Assembly: GCF_030149515.1 (NCBI RefSeq)
Contig: NZ_JASBRI010000029.1
Coordinates: 62,001-126,000, forward strand
DNA from: Maricaulis sp.
GTDB lineage: Bacteria; Pseudomonadota; Alphaproteobacteria; Caulobacterales; Maricaulaceae
DNA: 64,000 nucleotides
Direction of reading: 5' to 3'
Below are positions 5,058-62,379 of this stretch, in pieces. Positions within the stretch are counted from its first letter, which is position 1; every line of letters starts with the position of its first letter. Below the pieces are notes generated by a model. That model searched no databases and had not been told where the DNA came from. It worked only from the letters and a program-made list of their open reading frames with translations. The translations under genes and the position numbers were made by a program.

Positions 5058-5089
5058 GTTCTTGATTTGTTCTTTTTCTGAGTCATAGT
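5058..5089 (+). promoter_or_regulatory. LexA (SOS) box overlapping a promoter
   Basis: GTTC-TTGATTT-GTTC at 5058-5072 is an exact match to the alphaproteobacterial LexA direct repeat GTTC-N7-GTTC. A candidate -35 (TTGATT, 5062-5067) lies inside the box. A -10-like CATAGT (5084-5089) follows after 16 nt. The predicted +1 falls at or next to the ATG at 5096, and no Shine-Dalgarno sequence precedes that ATG, so the transcript is probably leaderless. A GANTC site (GAGTC, 5080-5084) lies between the box and the -10. Confidence 0.7.
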
Positions 5090-5095
5090 AGCGCC

Positions 5096-6232
5096 ATGAC
5101 CGAGCGCCCAGGTGGCTACGCCCTAAACGCCCCTTCCACGGCCCCCTCGCCCGACACCCCCACCGCCCCGGGGACCGGCGCCCGGGGCCGGGGCGCTCGG
5201 TCAAACATTTCAGGGCGCTATGAGATGTTCGCACGGGAAGCCTTCGACGACGGATGGACCGAGGCGGATGGCGAGGCACCGCGCCTGGCAACAACCATCC
5301 TGAAGGATGCCTCGCGCTCCATCGTGGCCACCAATTCCTCGCCCGACATCTCCTTCGACCAGTCGATCAATCCCTACCGGGGATGCGAGCATGGCTGCAT
5401 CTACTGCTATGCCCGGCCGAGCCATGCCTATTGGGGATATTCTCCGGGCCTGGACTTCGAAAGCATCATTTTCGCCAAGCCGGACGGGGCGGCCCTCCTG
5501 GAACAGCATTTCAACCGGCCGGGTTACACACCTCGGCCGATCGTGATCGGGGCCAATACGGATGCCTGGCAGCCCGTGGAAAAACAGCTGGAACACACGC
5601 GGGACATCCTCAAAGTCTTCGCCCGCTACAAACATCCGGTCAGTTTCATCACCAAATCGGCGCTCGTGCTGCGCGATCTCGACATCCTCGGGCCCATGGC
5701 CGCGCAGGGCCTGGCAAAGGGCGCCATATCCATCACCACGCTGGACAGGCGGCTGGCGCGGGACATGGAGCCCCGCGCCGCGGCGCCTCACCGCCGGCTC
5801 GATGCCGTACGCGGCCTGGCCGGCGCCGGGCTTCCTGTGACGGTAATGATGGCGCCGATCATACCGGCCTTGAACGACAGCGAGATCGAGGCGGTGTTCG
5901 AGGCAGCCGCCGAAGCGGGAGCGGCCAATGCCTCCTACGTACTCTTGCGCCTGCCGCTGGAGATCCGGGAACTGTTCCGCGAATGGCTGGCCGCAAAACG
6001 TCCCGATGCGGCGGCCCGGGTGATGTCGCTGATCCGCCAGATGCGCGGTGGCAAGGATTATGATGCGCGCTGGGGCGTGCGAGGCCGCGGCGACGGCCCG
6101 CTGGCGCAATTGATTGCCAAACGGATTCGCGCCGCGGTCAAACGCTATGGTCTGACGGCGCCGCGGGCGGAGCTGGATATTTCAAGGTTCGAACGCCCGC
6201 TTGGATCGGCGGGCCAGCCCAGCCTGTTCTGA
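5096..6232 (+). CDS. Spore photolyase-like radical SAM protein (PA0069 family)
   Basis: 378 residues. The radical SAM cluster-binding motif CxxxCxxC is C97, C101, C104 (GCEHGCIYCYA). It is preceded by the family N-terminal motif GRGARSNISGRYE and by SPDISFDQSINPYRG. The family is distantly related to spore photoproduct lyase (SplB); its substrate is not established. The ATG at 5096 has no SD but lies where transcription should start from the SOS-type promoter upstream, and the conserved N-terminal motif needs a start upstream of residue 30. LexA control points to a DNA-damage role. The UDG gene lies just upstream, but this gene has its own promoter. Confidence 0.88.
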   Translation: MTERPGGYALNAPSTAPSPDTPTAPGTGARGRGARSNISGRYEMFAREAFDDGWTEADGEAPRLATTILKDASRSIVATNSSPDISFDQSINPYRGCEHGCIYCYARPSHAYWGYSPGLDFESIIFAKPDGAALLEQHFNRPGYTPRPIVIGANTDAWQPVEKQLEHTRDILKVFARYKHPVSFITKSALVLRDLDILGPMAAQGLAKGAISITTLDRRLARDMEPRAAAPHRRLDAVRGLAGAGLPVTVMMAPIIPALNDSEIEAVFEAAAEAGAANASYVLLRLPLEIRELFREWLAAKRPDAAARVMSLIRQMRGGKDYDARWGVRGRGDGPLAQLIAKRIRAAVKRYGLTAPRAELDISRFERPLGSAGQPSLF

Positions 6233-61602: not shown

Positions 61603-62379
61603 TTAAGACGCTCGGACGGCCCAGTCGCCCACAGCCGCCTGCCAGAGCGTCAGCGCAGCGACCGCGGCGGTCTCCGCTCGCAGCACACGTGGTCCCAGCG
61701 TCACGGGGATGACAAAATCCAGACTGCGCAGACGGGCGCGCTCATCCGGCGAGAACCCGCCCTCCGGCCCGATCAGGATTGCAGCAGGCCCCGGCTCGAT
61801 GGCGGACAGCGCCTCGAGCATCGGCCGTCCCCGGCCGCGGGCGCCGCCCCAGGGCACGCCATCCTCATCGCCCGCCTCGTCGCAATAGATGAGCCGGCGT
61901 GCGGGATCCCAGCTGTCGAGCACGTGGTCCAACCTGTCCAGCTCATGCACGCGCGGCAGATCGAGCCGCTCGGTCTGTTCCGCGGCCTCCTTGGCGATCA
62001 GGCGGAAGCGGTCGGTCTTGATGCGATCGCTCTGGGTGCGGGCAGTGCTCACCGGGCGGATCTCGGCGGCGCCCAGCTCTGTGGCCTTTTCCACGACAAG
62101 ATCGGTCTTCTGGCGCTTGACCGGTGCGAACAGCAGCCAGAGATCCGGCACACTGCACTGTTCCCGCGTCTGCTCGACCGGCTCAAGCAGGGCCGCCTTG
62201 CGGCCTGCCTCGACGATGCCGGCACGCCATTCCCCGTTGCGGCCGTTGAACAGGCGCACCGTGTCGCCTGCACCGCGGCGCATCACATTCACCAGATAGT
62301 GCACATCCTCTTTCGGCAGGGCGACCGCCTGACCGGCGGCAAGATCCTGGCCGACGAAAAGTCTCGGATCGGTTGACAT
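61603..62379 (-). CDS. rsmE: 16S rRNA (uracil-1498-N3) methyltransferase
   Basis: 258 residues. SPOUT-fold methyltransferase: N-terminal PUA-like RNA-binding part (HYLVNVMRRGAGDTVRLFNG), then KATELGAAEIRPV, ILIGPEGGFSPDE and the knot sequence LGPRVLRAETAAVAAL. Methylates U1498 of 16S rRNA. The ATG at 62379 starts MSTDPRLFVG. An in-frame open stretch upstream belongs to the divergent ubiA leader. Divergent from ubiA across 77 bp. Confidence 0.95.
   Translation of the reverse strand: MSTDPRLFVGQDLAAGQAVALPKEDVHYLVNVMRRGAGDTVRLFNGRNGEWRAGIVEAGRKAALLEPVEQTREQCSVPDLWLLFAPVKRQKTDLVVEKATELGAAEIRPVSTARTQSDRIKTDRFRLIAKEAAEQTERLDLPRVHELDRLDHVLDSWDPARRLIYCDEAGDEDGVPWGGARGRGRPMLEALSAIEPGPAAILIGPEGGFSPDERARLRSLDFVIPVTLGPRVLRAETAAVAALTLWQAAVGDWAVRAS

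Follow-up and report, generated by a model that had tools for sequence, protein, structure and literature searches.

What an enzyme resembling spore photoproduct lyase (SPL) might do under SOS control is the question raised by a radical SAM gene of Maricaulis sp. within the window, the whole stretch of 64,000 nucleotides that was analysed (NZ_JASBRI010000029.1, positions 62,001 to 126,000). The gene occupies positions 5096..6232 of the forward strand and encodes a PA0069-family protein of 378 aa with a CX3CX2C motif at residues 97, 101 and 104. The protein scores 495.7 bits against NF033668 (cut-off 360), with profile positions 1–348 of 348 aligned, and PF04055 is its sole Pfam domain at E≤0.001; no photolyase domain was found in it at this threshold, which places it outside the FAD photolyase/cryptochrome family. 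Its second NCBIfam match is to the Rv2578c family (NF038135), at 195.5 bits and below the cut-off of 430. We know of no assigned substrate for the PA0069 family. The reading that we favour, and to which we give a probability of about 0.6, is that the gene encodes an SOS-induced, clamp-recruited DNA-maintenance enzyme of SPL fold, which would be translated from a leaderless mRNA and would use radical chemistry other than that of SPL on a DNA lesion.

The promoter region contains an exact LexA (SOS) box of the form GTTC-N7-GTTC, GTTCTTGATTTGTTC, at positions 5058..5072 of the forward strand, reading GTTC-TTGATTT-GTTC upstream of the radical SAM gene. As the earlier note had described, the box includes the apparent −35 element, TTGATT (5062..5067, forward strand), which is the commonest hexamer at this place among 98 orthologues. 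A spacer of 16 bp separates it from a −10 element, CATAGT (5084..5089, forward strand), whose position fits the profile of orthologues aligned at the start codon; A at −11 and T at −7 match that profile, and position −12 is C. Only six bases lie between CATAGT and the ATG, with no AGGAGG-like stretch among them. From this promoter-to-ATG geometry and the lack of a Shine–Dalgarno (SD) sequence, transcription is predicted to begin at the A of the ATG (position 5096, forward strand), giving a leaderless mRNA.

The gene preceding the radical SAM gene is annotated in the window as a family-4 uracil-DNA glycosylase (UDG). A partnership between the two, hinted at in the earlier note, finds no support: among 80 named loci, searched with flanks of up to 3 kb (shorter upstream in 8), tblastn with the window UDG gave a match in 10, never closer to the gene than about 2 kb, and UDG was rejected as a conserved adjacent partner. 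Phage records with a match to the radical SAM protein number 4 of 50,697, each covering 46–52 % of the protein at 31–35 % identity.

C-terminal tail, fold and active site

The protein ends in the pentapeptide QPSLF (residues 374–378, encoded at 6215..6229 of the forward strand), a putative beta-clamp-binding peptide that the earlier note did not mention. We compared the tails of 128 proteins, these being 131 collected orthologues minus two identical proteins and one fragment. The last residues are Q-x-x-L-F/L, with Q374 present in 128/128 and L377 in 125/128 (127/127 and 124/127 after removal of one gene that is counted twice). A loose pattern, Qxx[L/M][F/L], falls within the final 12 residues in 125 of the 128, the window protein included, against 6.9 in shuffled tails; of 3563 other 12-mers taken from these proteins, only 11 contain it. 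A stricter clamp motif, with a hydrophobic second residue, is found in 105/128 and in half (10 of 20) of the members sampled from other classes; the QPSLF of the window does not match it. Twelve radical SAM matches were found in the genome, and the window protein is the only one with such a tail. In the predicted model residues 371–378 have a mean pLDDT of 53.

The clamp-binding consensus is QL[SD]LF. DnaE of six alphaproteobacterial relatives was used as a control, because the DnaE of this genome runs into a contig end, and all six have QVSLF, QSSLF or QGGLF at residues 898–929 of the fragment read, which we take to be approximately the place of the E. coli DnaE clamp motif. In its sequence the radical SAM tail resembles this motif. 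Two further positive controls, DinB and ImuB of the same genome, have no QxxLF-type motif. The loose pattern is not specific, for it turns up at other places in 4 of the 6 DnaE proteins and inside a conserved ESRAQM stretch of 7/7 DnaE2 proteins, and its presence is not by itself proof of clamp binding; what conservation and resemblance suggest is that the tail would bind the beta clamp. The Qxx[L][F/L] ending is lacking in three SPL-family proteins whose tails are complete (L373, L374 and L381), whereas three actinobacterial homologues, putative members of NF038135, end in QLTLL, QEPLF and QLRLL. In the open-access literature searched we found no report of a C-terminal QxxLF-type pentapeptide on this family, and no paper that joins a clamp-binding motif with radical SAM, or PA0069/Rv2578c with LexA.

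Sequence searches of the PDB with the window protein or its alignment gave no convincing relative; the fold was compared through an AlphaFold2 model (mean pLDDT 76, with residues 1–62 unreliable). The six best PDB fold matches are all SPL entries, with E-values from 3.7e-9 to 2.8e-8 and about 16 % identity; the best is 4fhc, and the first match outside SPL is to SkfB (8.1e-7). The weaker matches include SkfB, lipoyl synthase and MiaB, which act on peptides, proteins or RNA, and for a family with no known substrate they leave some room for radical SAM chemistry that is induced by SOS but directed at RNA, a nucleotide or a protein such as the clamp or a polymerase, and not at DNA. We regard such a target as unlikely, since SPL, the closest fold, acts on DNA (3.7e-9, with 8.1e-7 for the best match outside SPL) and both the SOS control and the clamp-type tail point to DNA.

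SPL (PDB 4fhc and its mutants) is thus the best structural match, and it shares with the window family the CX3CX2C motif and a tyrosine before the last cluster cysteine. Throughout the 128 proteins C97, C101 and C104 are invariant, as is Y103, the tyrosine between the last two of these cysteines. In SPL catalysis Cys140 is the hydrogen donor, and Tyr98 also has a catalytic role. Residue 153 aligns with Cys140 in a register that was obtained by aligning an SPL-family intermediate to the SPL chain and then comparing profiles, with no superposition, and that rests on neighbouring residues, the intermediate itself having no Cys140 equivalent; at this position the 128 proteins have Thr (90), Ala (11), Gly (11), Ile (8), Ser (4), Val (3) or Met (1), and in no case Cys (0/128). 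The window residue is Ala, and no other cysteine column reaches 34 % of the proteins. The residue after the last cluster cysteine, equivalent to Tyr98, is Phe in 101 and Tyr in 27, including the window protein.

Spore-photoproduct chemistry is unlikely for this family because the aligned hydrogen-donor cysteine is absent, and on the same ground true membership of SPL was rejected and SPL kept as a fold relative. This weakens the proposal in the earlier note that the enzyme repairs a UV photoproduct by SplB chemistry. A genuine lyase of the spore-photoproduct type, reversing UV thymine photoproducts directly, without light and by SPL chemistry, would account for the fold match to 4fhc and for the invariant Y103, and the accessible text of PMC3323433 does call the gene product a predicted photolyase. 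We nevertheless think it improbable: the position of Cys140 is never Cys, that of Tyr98 is Phe in most of the proteins, though Tyr in 27 with the window among them, no SPL model appears among the NCBIfam matches of the window protein at E≤0.001, the genome also has an FAD photolyase/cryptochrome domain (PF03441), and spore photoproduct is described as exclusive to UV-irradiated spores in the part of PMC4929162 that is accessible. The genome has no match to TIGR03886, the model of the SPL family.

The LexA box and the start of the message

Scores above the NF033668 cut-off were obtained for 218 of 387 genomes of alphaproteobacteria, and a draw of 299 genomes from the phylum gave 153. The orthologue set of 131 consists of the window gene, the 30 loci with the highest scores and, from the 120 other matches listed, 100 taken one per genus first, with about 70 further matches outside the sample. 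Searched for in the 350 bp before the model match, the exact box is present in 116/131 orthologues (2 of the 131 have less than 100 bp upstream), representing 89/99 genera and 60/63 families, and the 15-mer of the window is unchanged in 33/131. GTTC pairs with spacings of N4–N6 or N8–N10 are found in 1–2 of 131 each, CTTGN7CTTG in 5/131 and CAAGN7CAAG in 0/131. The 15 orthologues with no exact forward box comprise 3 with a reversed box, 7 with one mismatch, 2 with a short upstream region and 3 with nothing close. The reversed box (GAAC-N7-GAAC on the coding strand) is confined, among the 131, to L112, L136 and L209, all of genus g70. In the set from named organisms, which has 5 genes in common with the 131, the box is present at 71/80 loci, including those of Brevundimonas, Caulobacter, Bradyrhizobium, Agrobacterium, Ensifer and Azospirillum.

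Outside the alphaproteobacteria the motif is a different one. Other classes of the phylum supplied 20 family members, sampled one per genus from 57 genomes with a match; none of them has GTTC-N7-GTTC, and in 12 an exact CTGT-N8-ACAG lies no more than 350 bp away. GAAC-N4-GTTC lies upstream of two of three actinobacterial homologues; the third (Arthrobacter) and one Gemmatimonadota homologue have none of the LexA motifs tried. The gene thus appears to be placed under different LexA motifs in different groups.

The search for GTTC-N7-GTTC upstream of alphaproteobacterial PA0069-family genes, which the earlier note had put forward as a check, therefore bears out its SOS link at the level of the box. 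The link is not new in print: PMC3323433 (2012), in its accessible text, predicts that 'splB' of alpha- and betaproteobacteria is preceded by LexA sites, and draws a role in photoreactivation. That gene, likewise SplB-like with LexA sites upstream, probably belongs to the same family as ours, given that NF033668 exceeds its cut-off in 218/387 genomes and the SPL-family model TIGR03886 in 1/241; strains of S. meliloti and P. denitrificans, species that appear in a figure of that paper, have a boxed PA0069-type gene. Its accessible text treats 'splB' as a matter of photoreactivation and makes no mention of leaderless geometry, clamp motif or active site. Related observations come from PMC7739468, where a radical SAM protein belongs to the core Gram-positive SOS regulon, and from PMC3765255, where SplB-like enzymes are linked to ImuB-C operons (both in their accessible parts). 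The terms photolyase, splB, radical SAM and photoproduct are absent from the main texts of PMC6473078, PMC13384398 and PMC4211646, in which the gene may be mentioned by locus tag, and photoproduct and splB are absent from the accessible part of PMC1839093.

The earlier note had placed the transcription start at the ATG by way of CATAGT, with no SD sequence, and here the orthologue geometry agrees with the window sequence. The first in-frame ATG lies 37–42 bp from the start of the box in 86 of the 116 boxed orthologues, and exactly 39 bp in 42; when any in-frame ATG, GTG or TTG is accepted, a start is found at 36–42 bp in 98/116 (77 genera). With one sequence per genus aligned at the start codon, the profile has T at −12 (60 %), A at −11 (65 %) and T at −7 (68 %). 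The TTG of the −35 element falls at −35 to −33 from the start codon in the aligned orthologues, and TTGATT (35) and TTGTTT (18) are prominent hexamers among the 98. At the control loci the box was found for lexA in 24/30 and for recA in 16/30, in both orientations and at varying distances.

It is quite unlikely, in our judgement, that the gene is SOS-controlled with a short ordinary leader, or with another start codon, and that its leaderless appearance is an artefact of start choice. A leader would suit the 18 of 116 orthologues with no start at 36–42 bp (7 at 26–30 bp and 11 fitting neither range) and the 16 of 71 boxed named loci whose ATG is at least 60 bp away (in the other named loci it is at 37–42 bp in 44, elsewhere in 8 and undefined in 3). 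These 16 include Agrobacterium, Rhizobium, Ensifer, Aurantimonas, Aureimonas and Jiella, with distances of 72–132 bp; by eye, the loci of these genera have the same box and a −10-like sequence followed by a leader with SD-like purine stretches, in Rhizobiaceae and Aurantimonadaceae. Against it, the box-to-start spacing is constant among the orthologues whereas the stretch between the start and the first conserved motif of the protein differs in length, the −10 profile occupies positions −12 to −7 relative to the start codon, and only 5 of the 98 have an SD core of at least four bases. A leaderless start for the radical SAM gene is thus well supported by comparison, although the leadered lineages indicate that this geometry is not general across the family, and in the open-access literature searched we found no report of it for this gene.

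Two variants of the upstream region may be noted. At L384, on pSymB of S. meliloti Ak57, a boxed PA0069-family gene has a leader with GGGGAGA before the ATG. At L135, L206 and L208, all of genus g58, the start lies 28–29 bp from the start of the box and TTGACT is found just upstream of the box, which, relative to the promoter, seems to be displaced by roughly one turn of the helix.

In this genome the box is that of an ordinary alphaproteobacterial SOS regulon. The pattern occurs 85 times genome-wide, compared with 33 times for its reverse, and when the surroundings of the 85 boxes are ranked by A+T content the window box comes third, tied with the next. Open reading frames were listed at 13 other box loci and then annotated, and the same box adjoins lexA, recA, uvrA, ruvC, mmcB, comM/yifB and an imuB-like gene. 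Further boxes adjoin genes with no known repair role (glyoxalase-like, response regulator, malate/lactate dehydrogenase-like and pre-peptidase domain protein), so that a box alone is not proof of SOS control. The three boxes in the window are not above chance (1.38 expected, with 17 of 100 shuffles reaching at least three) and their number was for this reason dropped as evidence. That the box at the radical SAM gene is a functionless chance match, as the number in the window and the several genome boxes beside genes with no known repair role would allow, can hardly be entertained when the exact box is conserved in 116/131 orthologues against 0–5/131 for the controls, this conservation being the decisive evidence, and other groups have different LexA motifs at the gene; sequence comparison confirms it as real.

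Other loci of this genome deserve brief mention. A LexA box at C25:100545-100559 (locus L073, 1546–1560) is flanked by a response-regulator gene and a fructokinase-like gene; the latter overlaps at its end with the start of dinB (L073, 2500), so that the box may control a fructokinase–dinB unit. Two exact boxes lie 46 bp apart on the minus strand at C9:15292-15352 (locus L023, 1501–1561); immediately behind them, a 187-codon ORF that matches nothing in Pfam or NCBIfam is probably spurious, and a DnaE gene match begins about 1.4 kb from the pair, at C9:16777. The FAD photolyase/cryptochrome domain (PF03441) is at C14:31826-32425 (locus L382), and light-dependent repair may also be available to this genome.

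Proposed mechanism and meaning for the family

On the reading of an SOS-induced, clamp-recruited enzyme, LexA bound to the box containing the −35 element would keep the promoter silent, and RecA filaments would trigger LexA cleavage and so allow transcription from the A of the ATG, yielding a leaderless mRNA. The C-terminal QxxLF-type peptide would then bind the sliding clamp and bring the enzyme to damaged or stalled replication sites, where it would act on a DNA lesion by 5′-deoxyadenosyl-radical chemistry unlike that of spore photoproduct lyase.

A parallel may exist in archaea, where, according to the accessible part of PMC4929162, SplB-like genes lie beside the gene of the PCNA binder NreB, their substrate is unknown and crosslink repair has been suggested. 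Both systems would join an SplB-like enzyme of unknown substrate to a binder of the sliding clamp, although in the archaeal one described there the link is in the neighbouring NreB whereas in the window family it would be in the tail of the enzyme itself. We therefore offer tentatively, and as one proposal whose parts we judge together to have rather less than an even chance, that the SplB-like radical SAM enzymes of organisms other than spore-formers repair DNA while tethered to the replisome. In bacteria the PA0069- and Rv2578c-like proteins would have their own beta-clamp peptide and be switched on by LexA under at least three LexA motifs; in archaea the tie would be made through the PCNA-binding neighbour NreB; and a non-SPL radical mechanism would act on fork-stalling lesions such as intra- or interstrand crosslinks.

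The feature of most interest that we did not find in print, in the open-access literature, is a clamp-type tail on an SPL-fold enzyme with no aligned hydrogen donor. The conserved leaderless start, set beside the leadered lineages, offers a natural contrast for asking why an SOS gene keeps a leaderless message. For a family as widespread as this one, with members in 218 of 387 genomes within the alphaproteobacteria and in 153 of 299 across the phylum, the SOS promoter and the clamp-type tail turn the label 'radical SAM, unknown' into a testable prediction, namely that of a damage-induced, clamp-recruited DNA enzyme which would work without the hydrogen donor of SPL.
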